In this document: piece after piece, positions 2,493-7,033 of the stretch
How positions within the stretch are numbered: position 1 is the first letter of the stretch
Layout: each line of letters begins with the position of its first letter
Assembly: GCA_900696465.1 (NCBI GenBank)
Contig: CAADGE010000048.1
Span: 186,001-250,000, forward strand
Length of the DNA: 64,000 nucleotides
Source of the DNA: an uncultured Planctomycetota bacterium
Lineage (GTDB): Bacteria > Planctomycetota > Phycisphaerae > UBA1845 > UTPLA1
Direction of reading: 5' to 3'
Made by a program: the position numbers and the translations under genes
The notes under the pieces: generated by a model
Told to the model about the DNA's origin: nothing
Databases searched by the model: none
The model's input: the letters and a program-made list of their open reading frames with translations, nothing else

Positions 2493-2769
2493 GACGCGAC
2501 TCCTTTCACGTATCACATGAGGGGCCGGGTTCCCTTCCGGCGCCGGCAGGGCGGTAGTTACACCTGCCGCTAAGAGTTTAACCGCGGAGGACGGGACGAT
2601 GCAACAATTTTGTAGGGTGGGCTGCCGGCGGGGGAGGTTTTCGAGAAAGGCAACGGGCCGGACGACTCATCCCTGCGCGTGGGTATGGAGTCGTCATTCG
2701 GCCCGATGTGCGATCGCTGTCGCACCTGCCTTCCCCCTTCGGAAAGCATCCGGAATATGTAAGCATTCG

Positions 2770-3024
2770 TCAGCGGGACGAGGCGTTCGAAGTTGCTGCT
2801 TCCCTGGCAGCGGGAAGGTCCTGAACCAGGTGGAGCTTTTCGAGGTCACCACGAAGCTGGAGATGCCCGCAGCTCTTGCACATCAGGGCGGTGACGGTGA
2901 CATCGGCCGTATGGAAAGTCATGAACTTGACCCCGCTGGGCCGAAAGTGCAGCGTGCCGGTGGACTGAAGACTACCGGAGACCATCGCGTCGTTGCCGCA
3001 GGCCGAACAAGTGGCTGATTTCAT
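2770..3024 (-). CDS. Small zinc-ribbon protein of unknown function
   Basis: An 84-residue protein with two CxxC knuckles: TCSACGN near the N-terminus and MCKSCGH about 45 residues later. The spacing suggests a zinc ribbon. The start ATG is supported by an AGGGAG site seven bases upstream. The segment between the knuckles (FRPSGVKFMTFHTADVTVTAL) resembles small nucleic-acid-binding or metal-binding proteins of planctomycetes annotated only as hypothetical. It lies alone on the minus strand between the MNIO cluster and mltA. No function is proposed beyond zinc binding. Confidence 0.6.
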   Translation of the reverse strand: MKSATCSACGNDAMVSGSLQSTGTLHFRPSGVKFMTFHTADVTVTALMCKSCGHLQLRGDLEKLHLVQDLPAAREAATSNASSR

Positions 3025-3201
3025 AAAACACTCCCTGTGAATCATCTTCGTTTGACGTCGGGTCTCTTTCGTTACCAGGACGAATCTCAGCGTCGGTGCA
3101 CGGATACCCGGCTGCCGTGAAGCTGGTCGTCGGGCAGTTCATCGGTCTGAAGCATTCCAGGGTTGAATCGTGCGTTATGACGGTGATCGAGTTCTCGGGC
3201 G

Positions 3202-4203
3202 TCAGGGCTTCGAGACCGAAAATCCTCCACTCGTATTGTGTGGTGGCAGTGACTTGTGGCGATCCTGACTCGTTGCTGCGAGCATGAGGATGCCTGATCT
3301 GAACCACTTTGCAAGCCGTTCGAAGAACTCGGCGAATAACAGTTCCTCGCTGCGGTGGTAGTCAGCCGGCAGTGCGGCCAGGTAGCGCCGTGCGAGATCA
3401 TCGACAAGCAGCAGTTCATCGCGAACGATCTCGGTGAACACGAAGCCGGGCTCTGCATCCTGTCGATGCCAGCAGGGCAGCAGCGTTTCGGTGTCTCGCC
3501 CGCAGACGAAGCGAACCGTGGGGCTGTCCTGATTGGACGCTGATTGCGCGATGGGCAGTGGATCGGGTAACTCGCGTGTCTTTCGCCATCGCGCGATGAA
3601 TGCGGGAGCGTTGAAAACATACGATCGAAATGCAACGTAAGATGGCACTGCGACGCGAAGCATCAGGAGTGCTTCGACCGTCAGGTTTGATAGCTCGTTC
3701 AGCTTCGCCGCTGTGACTCGCTCGAACGGCGGATCCGCTGCGTAGAAGACCTCCAGTTCGGTGCGTTCGAAATCCAGCAGGTCGGCCAAGCCGGCCCATG
3801 CGAGCAACCACTCCTGCCGCCGTGCACGAATGAACGCCTCAAAGTTCGCCGCCAACTGACGCTGCGAACTGCTGCGCCAAGGTCGCCAGCGGTGAAGCTC
3901 GCGTACCAGCTCGAAGTCGGCGAGACGGTGCGATTGTTCATCGCCTGCCGTCCGCCGAAGTCGATGAATGACGGCCAGACTCGCCGGGTAAACGTATTCG
4001 AGGGTAGATCGCTCACCGGCAAAGATCAGGTCGGTATAGACCCGAAGGCGTGCAGGGTCCATCTCGGCAAGGTCGGAGAGTTCGGATTGGTTCAGATGGG
4101 GAAAGCGTCGAGCCAGAGCATCTCGTTGCAGGTCGGCAGCTTTCACAGGATCGCTGTCGAGGATCATCTCACGTAGGGCAGAGAGATATGCGGGTAAGGC
4201 CAT
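3202..4203 (-). CDS. bufC: DUF2063-like partner protein of an MNIO enzyme (BufC-like)
   Basis: A 333-residue cytoplasmic protein encoded directly after the MNIO enzyme. Its ATG lies two bases past the stop of the preceding gene, so translation is probably coupled. The N-terminal third (LRVYTDLIFAGERSTLEYVYPASLAVI, then a stretch of LADFELV and WLLAWAGLADLLDFE blocks) has the layout of DUF2063 proteins, which recruit the RiPP precursor to the DUF692 enzyme in bufferin and related clusters. The C-terminal 130 residues (PCWHRQDAEPGFVF, then LFAEFFERLAKWF) look like the second, substrate-gripping domain of these partners. The similarity is recognisable but divergent, so the partner role rests partly on gene context. 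Confidence 0.7.
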   Translation of the reverse strand: MALPAYLSALREMILDSDPVKAADLQRDALARRFPHLNQSELSDLAEMDPARLRVYTDLIFAGERSTLEYVYPASLAVIHRLRRTAGDEQSHRLADFELVRELHRWRPWRSSSQRQLAANFEAFIRARRQEWLLAWAGLADLLDFERTELEVFYAADPPFERVTAAKLNELSNLTVEALLMLRVAVPSYVAFRSYVFNAPAFIARWRKTRELPDPLPIAQSASNQDSPTVRFVCGRDTETLLPCWHRQDAEPGFVFTEIVRDELLLVDDLARRYLAALPADYHRSEELLFAEFFERLAKWFRSGILMLAATSQDRHKSLPPHNTSGGFSVSKP

Positions 4204-4205
4204 AG

Positions 4206-5057
4206 CTAACTCGCGCGCAAAGCGGCCACATCGTCCATGAGCTTCTGGGCCATTTCCGCTTCCTGCAGCAGTCGATCCAGACTTGGAATCTCGGCGTCCC
4301 ATTCGACGAGGGCGGAACTCGGGCCGACCCGCTCGATGACCTTGCGATAAAGCCGCCAGGTCTCATCCGATACCGGTCGAGCGTGGGTATCAAGCAGCAC
4401 ATCGCCATTTTTTTCGAAGCCGGCCAGATGGAGCTGAATGACACGCTCCAGCGGGATGGCGTCGAGAAACGCCTCGGCGTCGTAGCCCTGGTTTGCCGCG
4501 TTGAGCACGACATTGGAGACATCCAGCAGCAGGCCGCAGTCGGCTCTCTCAAGTATTTGCGTGATGAATTCGGCCTCCGTCATCTGCGAGCGGGACGGGG
4601 CCACGTAGTAGGTGACATTCTCAAGGGCGAACGGTCGCTCGAGGATGTCCTGCACCACGCGAACCCGCTCGGCGACGTGGTGCGCCGCTTCTTCGGTAAA
4701 GGGCAACGGGATCAGGTCATTCAGATTGACATGATCCACCATCGTGAAGCATAGGTGATCGCTGAACCAGGGACTGTGAACGTCGTCGCAGAATTGGCGG
4801 ATTCGCCGCACATGCTCCAGATCGAGCGGGTCGGTACTCCCGATCGAGAGGGCTACACCGTGGGCGATGAGCGTGTAGTTCTCTGCGATTCTGCGAAGTG
4901 ACTCGGCGATGAATCCGCCGCGACCGATGAAATTCTCCGGGATGACCTCAAACCATCGGACCGGCGGCCGTCGATCGATGATCTCGGCGAAGTGCTGCCG
5001 GCGAAGGCCGATACCGGCACCGAGGCGAGGAAGCGACGCTCGTGCATTGAAGTTCAT
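4206..5057 (-). CDS. bufB: DUF692 multinuclear non-heme iron oxidase (MNIO), BufB-like
   Basis: A 283-residue TIM-barrel enzyme of the DUF692 family, whose members (MbnB, BufB, TglH and others) use two or three iron ions and O2 to modify cysteines in ribosomal peptides. Family motifs are all visible: HGVALSIGS near residue 66, SDHLCF near 99, ENVTYY near 146, LLLDVSNVVLNA near 177, QLHLAGF near 208, DTHARPV near 223 and ALVEWD near 250. These supply the conserved His, Glu, Asp and Asn iron ligands. The gene sits between a Cys-rich precursor gene upstream and a DUF2063-like gene downstream, the usual bufferin order. The exact cysteine modification (for example thiooxazole formation) cannot be read from the sequence. 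Confidence 0.92.
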   Translation of the reverse strand: MNFNARASLPRLGAGIGLRRQHFAEIIDRRPPVRWFEVIPENFIGRGGFIAESLRRIAENYTLIAHGVALSIGSTDPLDLEHVRRIRQFCDDVHSPWFSDHLCFTMVDHVNLNDLIPLPFTEEAAHHVAERVRVVQDILERPFALENVTYYVAPSRSQMTEAEFITQILERADCGLLLDVSNVVLNAANQGYDAEAFLDAIPLERVIQLHLAGFEKNGDVLLDTHARPVSDETWRLYRKVIERVGPSSALVEWDAEIPSLDRLLQEAEMAQKLMDDVAALRAS

Positions 5058-5165
5058 GCCAGCGACTCCGTTCCGGCTCGCTCAGGACAAGTTCGGCGGT
5101 TGAATTCCGTGCGACGCTGCGTCGCCCGCTCACCTCGTTACCAAGGACTTCAACGAAGCGGCATG

Positions 5166-5210
5166 TTATCATAAAAAAATGACCGCCGCGCCGACAAAGG
5201 CGCGACGGCC
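5166..5210 (-). terminator. Intrinsic terminator between the RiPP precursor and its modifying enzyme
   Basis: On the minus strand a hairpin of about 12 pairs has arms at 5199-5210 and 5181-5192, with a six-base loop. It contains two U-G wobbles and is followed by an A and seven T residues (5173-5179). It lies 34 bases downstream of the precursor stop codon and about 110 bases before the MNIO start. It probably lets most transcripts stop after the precursor, giving more substrate than enzyme. Confidence 0.75.
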
Positions 5211-5243
5211 TCGAGTTTTGTCAGTGCGAAACGACAGTGGGGA

Positions 5244-5441
5244 CTACTTGGTTTCTCCACCGCACTTCTTCTCTCCGCCGCACTTCTTGTCGCCGGAGCA
5301 GCTCTTCTCGCCACTGGCGCAGCACGCGCCGCCGGACTGCTCACTGCAACCGCTGTTCGTGGCCAGCAGGGCGCCGCCGCCGATCAGCCCCGCAACGACG
5401 GTCGCCTTGATCCCACCGAAGGCCAGTTTCCTGAGTTTCAT
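5244..5441 (-). CDS. Cys-rich bufferin-like RiPP precursor peptide
   Basis: A 65-residue peptide likely to be the substrate of the adjacent MNIO enzyme. It has an N-terminal secretion signal (KLRKLAFGGIKATVVAGLIG, then GGALLATNSG) followed by a hydrophilic tail with six cysteines at residues 32, 40, 41, 48, 54 and 60. The tail ends in two KKCGGE-type repeats, like the KCG repeats of known bufferins. The chosen ATG has an AAAGGA site eight bases upstream; two upstream in-frame ATGs would give 71 or 90 residues. Bufferins are exported copper-binding peptides, so copper chelation or export is the leading inference. The Cys32 context (NSGC) is not a good lipobox, so a lipoprotein is less likely. 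Confidence 0.8.
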   Translation of the reverse strand: MKLRKLAFGGIKATVVAGLIGGGALLATNSGCSEQSGGACCASGEKSCSGDKKCGGEKKCGGETK

Positions 5442-5944
5442 CAGATACGTTCCTTTCATAACGAACGAGTTAAGGTGTGCCGGCACCCACGGCCGGAACG
5501 TTGCTTCTTTGATCACCTCTTCCCCACCTGCAGGGCAGTCCTCGGCCGGGTTGAGACACAGACCGATTCAACCGCAGCCCTGCATGCACTCGTGCCCTGT
5601 AATAAACCATCGGCAGGTGTTAGGATTTCCTCTCATCCCAGCCCAACGCAGCAACCCGGTCACCCTTGAAGTGTACGATCAGCACCATACACGGCCACGG
5701 CCGATAAATACTCTGCACGACGGAATAGCAGGCGTCGCACAGAAAATTGGCCTCGCTCGGAGATTCGATGTCCTGATTTCTCCAGAGGTTACAGCATTAG
5801 TTGCTTGACGGGACGTTGGGATGCCACAATACTTAGTCATCGCGACCATTCACGGGGGAAGAAGATCCTCCCGCCGATCCTGCGGTCGTGCTACAGCGGC
5901 CTCGCCATCATTGCCGCTCTTTCGCGGCCCGGGAGTCTGATCTC
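5442..5944. other. Divergent intergenic region upstream of the RiPP cluster and the metzincin gene
   Basis: About 500 bases without a convincing gene. It must hold the promoter of the minus-strand precursor gene, but I could not settle on a -35/-10 pair for it. A plausible plus-strand promoter is listed separately. Nothing else was recognised. Confidence 0.5.
5805..5833 (+). promoter_or_regulatory. Putative sigma-70-type promoter of the metzincin gene
   Basis: TTGACG (5805-5810) is followed after 17 bases by AATACT (5828-5833). That is five of six and four of six matches to the consensus hexamers. Transcription would start near 5840, leaving about 105 bases of leader before the GTG start at 5945. 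Confidence 0.4.
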
Positions 5945-7033
5945 GTGCTCAAGAAGTACCTGTCTCTTCCCTTCCTGCTTTTATTCGTCACAGCGGGAAC
6001 TTCAGGACTGACCTGTTTTTCGCCCGGCATGATGCCCGGGATAGATTTGGGCAGTTCGTTTCTGACGGCGACCCCGATCACTCTCGATGCTGACGGAAAG
6101 GCAGTTTTCACGTCCCTGATTACCGGAAACAAGGTGGACGTGGCGGACCTCGGTCCCATGTCCCCTGGTGACCGGATCATTCTGACCGTCAAACCGACAG
6201 TCGGCAGCCCGCTCGATCCGGTAGCCGCATTGTTTGACGATAACCAGGAACTCTTCGCGCTGAACGACGACGTGGACTTTGTCCAGGGTCGGATCGATTC
6301 AGCGATCGACGAGATCGTGACCGTGGCGACGCCGCGGATGTTTCTCGCGATCACCAAGTTTCCGCTCGGCAACCAGGAAGGCGCCTACGAGGCATCTGTT
6401 CAGGTGATGCGCGGCCAGCCAATTCCGGTACCAGTTCCCCAGAAGTTGCTGTTGAATTTCGCCGGCGGCAGTGTGTCAATTCCCAGTGAAGGCAACATCA
6501 CGGTCGATCCCTTCGACGCAAAAGACATCAATCCCATCTACGACGGGCAGACCAACCAGATCAAGAACGTCATCGTCAACACGGTTCGTAATCGATTTGC
6601 GGGAATGGGCATTCAGATTGTGACCAGCGATGACATTCCTCCTCCTAACCCGCAGGATTGTCTGAGCGTCATTCTCTTCGGCGGCTTTTCACAGACCAAG
6701 TTCGGTGTGGCCCAGTCCGTCGATCAGGGAAATCGCGACCGCTGCGACGACGGCATCGTTTTCACGAACGACTTCACCAAGCCCTTTGCCCTGCCGCTTC
6801 CGTCGGCCGATGGCGTCGGCCAGGCCATCGGCAATGTCGCTGCCCACGAGGCCGGCCACCTGCTCGGCCTCAACCATGTCGCCGACATCACTGACCTGAT
6901 GGATACGACGGGAACGGCCAGTAGTCTTCTGGCCGAGCAGATCTTCAAGACTTCGCGCCTTGCAGCCAGTGTTTTTCCAATCGGCATGCAGAATGGGCCG
7001 GCGCTGCTGCACCGCGTGATTCCGCCTCCCTGA
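5945..7033 (+). CDS. Secreted metzincin-type zinc metalloprotease
   Basis: A 362-residue exported protein with a signal peptide (LKKYLSLPFLLLFVTAGTSG). The chosen GTG start has GGGAG nine bases upstream. The first half resembles a pre-peptidase or beta-sandwich domain (GDRIILTVKPTVGS, then VAALFDDNQELFALNDD). Near residue 300 it carries HEAGHLLGLNH, the HExxHxxGxxH zinc site of metzincins, followed about ten residues later by DLMD, which could be the Met-turn. It is therefore probably a matrixin- or snapalysin-like extracellular protease. The substrate is unknown. It precedes the DUF1800/DUF1501 pair in the same direction with a gap of about 120 bases, so co-transcription is possible but not shown. 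Confidence 0.75.
   Translation: MLKKYLSLPFLLLFVTAGTSGLTCFSPGMMPGIDLGSSFLTATPITLDADGKAVFTSLITGNKVDVADLGPMSPGDRIILTVKPTVGSPLDPVAALFDDNQELFALNDDVDFVQGRIDSAIDEIVTVATPRMFLAITKFPLGNQEGAYEASVQVMRGQPIPVPVPQKLLLNFAGGSVSIPSEGNITVDPFDAKDINPIYDGQTNQIKNVIVNTVRNRFAGMGIQIVTSDDIPPPNPQDCLSVILFGGFSQTKFGVAQSVDQGNRDRCDDGIVFTNDFTKPFALPLPSADGVGQAIGNVAAHEAGHLLGLNHVADITDLMDTTGTASSLLAEQIFKTSRLAASVFPIGMQNGPALLHRVIPPP

Follow-up and report, generated by a model that had tools for sequence, protein, structure and literature searches.

A probable captophorin-class RiPP locus with [DE]KxC[GS] precursor repeats in a planctomycete genome

The window analyzed here is a 64,000-nucleotide stretch of contig CAADGE010000048.1 (C48) from the 4.14-Mb genome (G000) of an uncultured planctomycete of the class Phycisphaerae. 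On its minus strand lie three genes in the order precursor peptide, multinuclear non-heme iron oxidative enzyme (MNIO, DUF692) and partner protein, the partner gene starting 2 nt past the MNIO stop (Table 1). An earlier note on this DNA, written from its letters alone, had put three open reading frames (ORFs) in this place and order. It had called them a cluster for a ribosomally synthesized and post-translationally modified peptide (RiPP), arranged like the bufferin genes bufABC. Both statements hold. The proteins of the locus and neighboring ORFs were scanned with Pfam and NCBIfam profiles, and an order-level sample of 114 genomes was searched with profiles for the MNIO type and the precursor.

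Table 1. Features of the precursor-MNIO-partner locus and its surroundings (window coordinates).
Feature	Position	Strand	Basis or remark
Precursor peptide, 65 aa	5244..5441	-	Conserved in 10 genomes
MNIO (DUF692) enzyme, 283 aa	4206..5057	-	PF05114, E 2.3e-104
Partner, 333 aa: DUF2063-like helical domain plus RiPP recognition element (RRE)-like C-terminal domain	3202..4203	-	AlphaFold2 (AF2) model
Possible intrinsic terminator or attenuator: 12-bp GC-rich hairpin, then T7	5181..5210	-	Between precursor and enzyme genes
Small CxxC...CxxC zinc-ribbon-like ORF, 3' of partner	2770..3024	-	Sub-cut-off zinc-ribbon matches only (Pfam, NCBIfam)
Divergent matrixin-like metalloprotease ORF, beside precursor	5888..7033	+	PF00413, 22.5 bits, below cut-off 24

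The precursor (5244-5441; MKLRKLAFGGIKATVVAGLIGGGALLATNSGCSEQSGGACCASGEKSCSGDKKCGGEKKCGGETK) consists of a signal segment, MKLRKLAFGGIKATVVAGLIGGGALLATNSG, followed by Cys32, the residues ACC and three [DE]KxC[GS] units. Cys32 ends the signal (TNSG-C), and the other five of its six cysteines lie beyond. The earlier note had the length and the cysteine count right; its KKCGG repeats describe two of the units, the third being EKSCSG. No Pfam or NCBIfam profile matches the window precursor at E<=1, hence DUF2282 does not. Its family, known from ten genomes, spans 65-94 aa and shares a common signal with an invariant Gly-Cys at its end (10/10). Each member carries 3-5 [DE]KxC[GS] units, so that the tail called short in the earlier note stands at one end of the family's own range. 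By these comparisons the precursor is a conserved protein-coding gene family, beyond chance: the protein is kept in ten genomes, comparison with G002 gives a dN/dS of 0.41 and comparison with G010 one of 0.08 (where dS, at 2.6, is saturated), and unlinked copies were recovered by profile. The signal-end Gly-Cys suggests lipidation, with Cys32 as a possible site; among 178 ORFs, 11 have lipoprotein-like N-termini, 8 of them with glycine at position -1 of the cysteine. About 16% of Buf2 bufferin precursors are predicted to be lipidated (PMC12452194). Escherichia coli has been used to produce the oxazolin NedA in tri-acylated, modified form, with 4 Da lost per EGKCG (PMC12636315), so the principle of a RiPP lipoprotein is already known.

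Does the precursor travel with the enzyme? A profile scan of contigs gave eight loci, and 10 of 61 near genomes carry an MNIO. Counted at E<1e-95, the window MNIO type occurs in 10 of the 114 order genomes, three more of which carry only other MNIOs. The precursor is found (E<=4.6e-18) in exactly those ten; the remaining 104 gave two weak matches and none better than E 5e-5. The ten rows of the final precursor profile (A4) are these same ten genomes, and only the recovery of G010 and G044 is independent: profile A1, built without either, retrieved their precursors at E 5.7e-25 and 1.4e-20. In eight genomes the precursor adjoins the MNIO gene on its upstream side; in G010 and G044 it is unlinked. 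The G010 precursor lies at C3:958291 (of 1,179,204 bases) and the MNIO at C1:177822 (of 346,492), and in G044 the two are at C16:130931 (of 229,719) and C11:245047 (of 345,458), all of them inside long contigs and far apart. G001, which belongs to the same genus as the window genome, matched neither the precursor nor the MNIO profile.

The weaker matches were inspected one by one. The match in G481 (L066 on C45, E 5.6e-5) is a cysteine-rich, lipoprotein-like peptide with a STGCAS signal end and no repeats, and no MNIO was found in that genome. No convincing precursor was seen at the weak match in G473 (E 6.3e-4), and the stretch of G060 examined after an A1 match (E 0.0033) holds no such ORF. 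The relative L016 has its partner gene broken into two ORFs of 203 and 70 aa (L016:6840-7742), a frameshift or an assembly error. The signal segment of its precursor (L016:5602-5826), and only that segment, matches TIGR04081 weakly (E 0.02), the family that covers thio(seleno)oxazole precursors of the SbtA kind; a search on selenobiotic/SbtM for a link to the radical-SAM SbtA precursors listed nothing relevant. In G007 and G008, from the taxonomic family of the window genome, other MNIOs (L009, L010) follow large membrane-protein-like ORFs with Cys/Gly-rich C-termini. These resemble TIGR04222 proteins by literature description only.

The enzyme itself is a clear MNIO, as the earlier note had stated. 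It scores 348.8 bits against PF05114 (cut-off 25) and keeps all seven family motifs (HG, SDH, EN, LDV-N, H-AG, DTH and E-D) when set against 3BWW. Residues H66, D100, H101, E146, D179, N182, H210, D223, H225, E252 and D254 are invariant in 11 of 11 aligned rows. Substitutions at N, D and H positions of HvfB are reported to abolish its activity (PMC13419390), and Asp249 of FonB is the proposed base (PMC13097082). Judged by motif and not by direct alignment, the invariant set appears to include the counterparts of all of these. The earlier note had named two observations that would count against it, a lack of homologous clusters in relatives and active-site residues out of register; homologous clusters exist, and the active-site motifs align.

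Which branch of the MNIO family is this? The window enzyme passes the NF050167 BufB cut-off of 310 narrowly, at 326.6 bits, and stays under that of HvfB (285.8 against 360). Six of six Phycisphaerae enzymes scored from its clade reach 311-327 with BufB; three Buf enzymes score 366-372, an EGKCG enzyme 287, and L019, from a genome labeled Myxococcota, 301. With HvfB these clade members score 262-286, the Buf enzymes 269-274 and the EGKCG enzyme 407. We built trees of 28 and 27 rows, with reference MNIOs drawn from plasmids and with 15 and 12, respectively, of L030-L059, the 30 best-scoring other PF05114 loci (not a random sample) from a phylum sample of 392 planctomycete genomes. The long-branched L089, L071 and L011 were removed from the first tree, and the second also went without L019 (the same enzyme as L123), L033, L055 and L057. 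The window clade falls outside the Buf1+Buf2 enzyme clade (96/98 with 28 rows, 100/99 with 27) and beside the EGKCG enzymes, not among them. In the 27-row tree its sister group is made up of eight enzymes of L019's class (99/99); the deepest split there is weak (62/87), L129 takes no settled place, and L128 is placed, weakly supported, next to the Buf clade. The bufferin comparison of the earlier note needs correcting for the enzyme, which lies outside the Buf1/Buf2 clade and has a narrow BufB score.

Similar precursors occur in that second group. When 45 genomes of L019's class were searched, the precursor profile matched 8. Twelve of these genomes, the 8 with a match plus 4 more, were searched for MNIOs, and all but one have one, including 3 of the 4 without a match; of those three, one has a related precursor missed by the profile, one an EGKCG type and one another kind. 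A Cys-repeat precursor stands directly upstream of the MNIO gene at 7 of the 8 loci of this sister clade.

In the phylum at large, 110 of the 392 genomes have an MNIO, and the precursor profile (E<=0.001) matches 8, not all convincingly. By eye, 26 of L030-L059 have Cys-Lys precursors resembling Buf2, one (L048, G272) has, upstream of the MNIO, NGCGGP/Q six-residue repeats without an acid, and at three none was seen. L128 (G289) has [SA]KGCGG six-residue repeats upstream of its MNIO, likewise without an acid. Upstream of L129 (G131), whose MNIO has an Arg-Arg pair, are GDKSCGG repeats behind a VTGC signal end. KSCG-repeat matches lie away from the Arg-Arg MNIO in G112 (L132 on C4; enzyme L130 on C59) and in G087 (L133 on C68; enzyme L131 on C6), so separation of precursor and enzyme may be a repeated event in the phylum. 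At L101 (G405 C4, E 2.0e-5) a signal-like start is followed by six-residue EGKCGG repeats, and for this genome no PF05114 match was listed. In G086 two matching stretches were unconvincing and again no PF05114 match was listed.

We then compared the residues around the cysteines, with L048, L116, L117 and L128-L131 left aside and with the ten window-clade precursors represented by the 67 cysteines after the signal end in ORFs with proper starts. Buf2 precursors have six or twelve cysteines, and a third family, Buf_EGKCG or oxazolin, has EGKCG repeats (PMC12452194). The four cysteines that the earlier note took as usual for bufferins are right for Buf1 only, and the EGKCG family had been overlooked. 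The precursor alignment has no four-conserved-Cys layout of the published Buf1 kind. Lysine directly after cysteine, as in Buf2, occurs at 0 of 6 window cysteines and at 4 of 67 in the ten precursors. Nor are the units EGKCG repeats: read by eye and by alignment, they are [DE]K[KS]C[GS] at six-residue spacing. An acid at position -3 of the cysteine is found at 45 of 67 sites in the window clade, 34 of 38 in the Myxococcota-labeled group, 27 of 28 in EGKCG, 1 of 26 in Buf1 and 13 of 153 in Buf2. Lysine stands at -2 at 46 of 67 window-clade sites and a fraction of 0.76 of the Myxococcota sites; in EGKCG it is absent there and stands at -1 (0.71). The commonest spacing is six in the window clade (38/57), the Myxococcota group and Buf2, and 5 or 11 in EGKCG. 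In the residues around its repeat cysteines, the window precursor resembles Buf_EGKCG more closely than Buf1.

The enzymes differ at the positions that may read these residues. In FonB, Arg16 is reported to favor Glu at -3, likely through a productive contact, and Phe250 touches the residues before and after the cysteine in a model (PMC13097082). The window MNIO has an Arg19-Arg20 pair, and its Asp254 is followed by Ala. Of ten window-clade enzymes nine have the second Arg, as do 5 of 5 EGKCG enzymes; none of L030-L059 does. Four more planctomycete enzymes, L128-L131, have it too. They were chosen for precursor-profile matches in their genomes, so the pair may follow precursor type and not clade alone. 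After the catalytic Asp the ten window-clade enzymes have Ala (5), Val (2), Phe (2) or Ser (1); five EGKCG enzymes have Phe (4) or Tyr (1). An Arg pair kept and a Phe lost would fit a retained need for the acid together with a relaxed choice of the residue before the cysteine.

The partner is more divergent. It scores 17.5 bits against Pfam DUF2063 (cut-off 27.2) and 25.8 against HvfC of NCBIfam (cut-off 142); 8 of the 10 members of its family profile (A2) match DUF2063 at E<=0.1, the best at E 0.0014. An hmmsearch of A2 against PDB sequences gave no match at E<=1. Its AF2 model (predicted local distance difference test score, pLDDT, 86.2; predicted template modeling score, pTM, 0.80) aligns 199 of 200 residues with 3DEE, which is NGO1945, at Z 15.1 and a root-mean-square deviation of 3.2. 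NGO1945 is NgoC, the partner of gonophorin. The model also matches TglI (8hi7; Z 13.8), and its C-terminal part aligns with TbtB and NisB (Z 6-8) and with PqqD (Z 4.8), all of which we take to be RRE-bearing or RRE-like. These structural matches make it probable that the protein is an RRE-bearing partner of the MNIO, its sequence having drifted away from the DUF2063 signature. The DUF2063-like partner of the earlier note is therefore upheld by predicted fold and not by the Pfam cut-off; of the three profiles it proposed, DUF692 matched, DUF2063 stayed under its cut-off and DUF2282 found nothing.

A stable hairpin lies 3' of the precursor gene in 11 of 11 loci folded, among them three with unlinked precursors, one of these three from the Myxococcota-labeled genome. 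Of 100 dinucleotide shuffles per locus, no more than 2 reached the same stability. A run of at least five T follows the hairpin at 5 of 8 adjacent loci, with none at the other 3, and a generic terminator scan of 2500-6000 found two sites against 2.9 expected, which is no excess. The hairpin may attenuate transcription into the enzyme genes. A search for a copper operator found little shared in the upstream DNA of the window, G002 and G010 beyond AAAGGAACG, a stretch resembling a ribosome site; one 8-bp inverted repeat was seen besides. Rfam gave no match over the gathering score in 2500-6500.

Two neighboring ORFs have at most a possible role in the module. The zinc-ribbon-like ORF 3' of the partner recurs in G002 and G010. 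The metalloprotease ORF adjoins the precursor in the window and in the same two genomes, including G010, where the precursor lies away from the MNIO. A larger conserved cluster was considered and rejected: among 14 loci searched, proteins flanking the window genes matched only those of G002 and G010. The Pfam scan of the neighboring genes gave no sigma or anti-sigma gene. The earlier note had offered its link to copper as an inference, and it stands as one, with no copper gene among the scanned neighbors and no upstream operator shared by the three genomes.

We consider it likely that the locus encodes a captophorin-class (MNIO plus partner) RiPP metallophore, probably lipid-anchored, whose cysteines would become copper-binding 5-thiooxazoles. 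Captophorin loci are recognized by an adjacent cysteine-rich precursor, an MNIO and an RRE-bearing partner, and all three are here, the partner being RRE-like by predicted fold. Characterized MNIO-PME1 clusters are reported all to install 5-thiooxazole and generally to bind copper (PMC13097082). The genes, their co-occurrence, the catalytic motifs, the predicted partner fold, the repeat motif and the clade are read from sequence; for chemistry, export, lipidation, metal and physiological role we argue from characterized relatives. By this analogy the RRE-like domain of the partner would bind the signal or leader of the precursor in the cytoplasm and present the tail to the MNIO. The enzyme, with iron and O2, would convert the cysteine of each [DE]-K-x-C-[GS] unit to 5-thiooxazole, its Arg19-Arg20 pair reading the acid three residues before. 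After export through Sec the peptide would, in Phycisphaerae, probably receive a lipid on its invariant signal-end cysteine, giving a membrane-tethered buffer for a soft metal, with Cu(I) the likeliest. The hairpin behind the precursor gene may allow more precursor than enzyme to be made.

The chances are about even that we are looking at a separate captophorin family of Planctomycetota and Myxococcota. It would have [DE]KxC[GS] repeats and its own MNIO clade, would be lipid-anchored in Phycisphaerae, and in several genomes would depend on modification in trans, the precursor gene lying apart from that of the MNIO. We did not find the branch described in the literature searched, and searches by repeat-motif strings gave no title on MNIOs among the matches listed; the supplementary precursor lists of PMC12452194 and PMC13097082, which lay outside the search, may include it.

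Several observations weigh against the captophorin interpretation. The partner does not carry the Pfam DUF2063 signature, and Antoine et al. describe signal-bearing precursors as accompanying signature-bearing partners (PMC12452194); the window group is an exception to that rule or a divergent case of it. At position -3 of the lipobox-like cysteine, eight of the ten precursors have Asn (as in the window), Ser, Thr or Gln, one has Ala, one Val and none Leu, which leaves lipidation likely rather than certain. The seven adjacent Myxococcota precursors have no signal-end cysteine at all. The Ala after the catalytic Asp implies that the substrate is not read exactly as in EGKCG systems. The Myxococcota enzymes carry Arg-His in place of Arg-Arg, so a rule pairing Arg with the acid is not strict. 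Repeat-bearing precursor matches also occur without a PF05114 match, as in G405. The scanned neighbors (MltA, the zinc-ribbon ORF and the metalloprotease) include no copper gene and no DoxX by Pfam, and for a related Microbulbifer cluster copper protection is reported not to be robust (PMC12538549).

Another reading is that the peptide buffers a metal other than copper or meets redox stress. The scanned neighborhood without a copper gene and the Microbulbifer product agree with it, as do mentions that related operons respond to gold and calcium (PMC8692599, PMC12452194). Since characterized 5-thiooxazole peptides generally bind copper (PMC13097082), we regard it as unlikely, though worth keeping in mind. 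That the MNIO installs some other modification, an oxazolone-thioamide or another ring, is improbable. The separate enzyme clade, the Ala in place of Phe and the different chemistry of other MNIO clades (PMC13419390) would allow it; yet the enzyme branches beside MNIO-PME1 systems, which in every characterized case install 5-thiooxazole (PMC13097082).

By NCBIfam naming, the locus would be a bufferin of the ordinary Buf1 or Buf2 kind whose precursor has diverged. The enzyme passes the BufB equivalog cut-off, the genes stand in bufABC order, the precursor has the six-residue cysteine spacing of Buf2, and most enzymes of the clade score no higher with HvfB than Buf enzymes do. The trees disfavor this, the Buf1+Buf2 clade excluding the enzyme with the support given above; DUF2282 is unmatched, and the Cys-Lys pattern read by eye at 26 of L030-L059 is missing. 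We judge it distinctly improbable. It is harder still to believe that an unmodified, metallothionein-like lipoprotein happens to sit beside an unrelated MNIO. A cysteine-rich, lipoprotein-like peptide does exist without an MNIO (G481, L066), as does the EGKCGG-repeat ORF of G405. A terminator-like hairpin separates the precursor and MNIO genes, and two of the ten genomes have the precursor apart from the MNIO. Against chance stand the co-occurrence in 10 of 10 genomes, the unlinked ones included, and the same association in the Myxococcota-labeled group.

A captophorin-class assignment would extend a large class of metal-handling peptides by an enzyme clade and a precursor motif, and would do so in phyla for which we found no characterized member. 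An Arg-Arg pair without the Phe offers a natural test of how MNIOs read the residues around the cysteine. Precursors unlinked to their enzyme would escape cluster mining restricted to the MNIO neighborhood.

How does the locus compare with known systems? TglHI and MbnBC share the MNIO ligand motifs, and TglI the fold of the partner, but their chemistry is different, their sequences are distant, and their precursors are described as having no signal peptide (PMC12452194). Buf1, with DUF2282 and the gig operon, has the same bufABC order and an MNIO with an RRE partner; unlike it, the window precursor has neither a DUF2282 match nor the four-Cys pattern, and the scanned neighbors include no sigma/anti-sigma pair or DoxX. 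Buf2 shares gene order, signal peptide and six-residue spacing. It differs in its Cys-Lys motif, in the rarity of an acid at -3 and in an MNIO clade that excludes the window enzyme. Closest are the Buf_EGKCG or oxazolin systems (the Lys-Cys captophorins HvfA-C, FonA-C, NgoA-C and NedA-C). Here the window clade departs in a spacing of mostly 6 (not 5 or 11), in lysine mainly at -2, where EGKCG has none, in Ala, Val or Ser (8/10) for the aromatic residue after the catalytic Asp, and in a separate enzyme clade, the window enzyme scoring under the HvfB cut-off. With these systems it shares the acid at -3 and a small residue after the cysteine, the MNIO Arg-Arg pair, repeats that follow a Sec signal, and an RRE-bearing partner.

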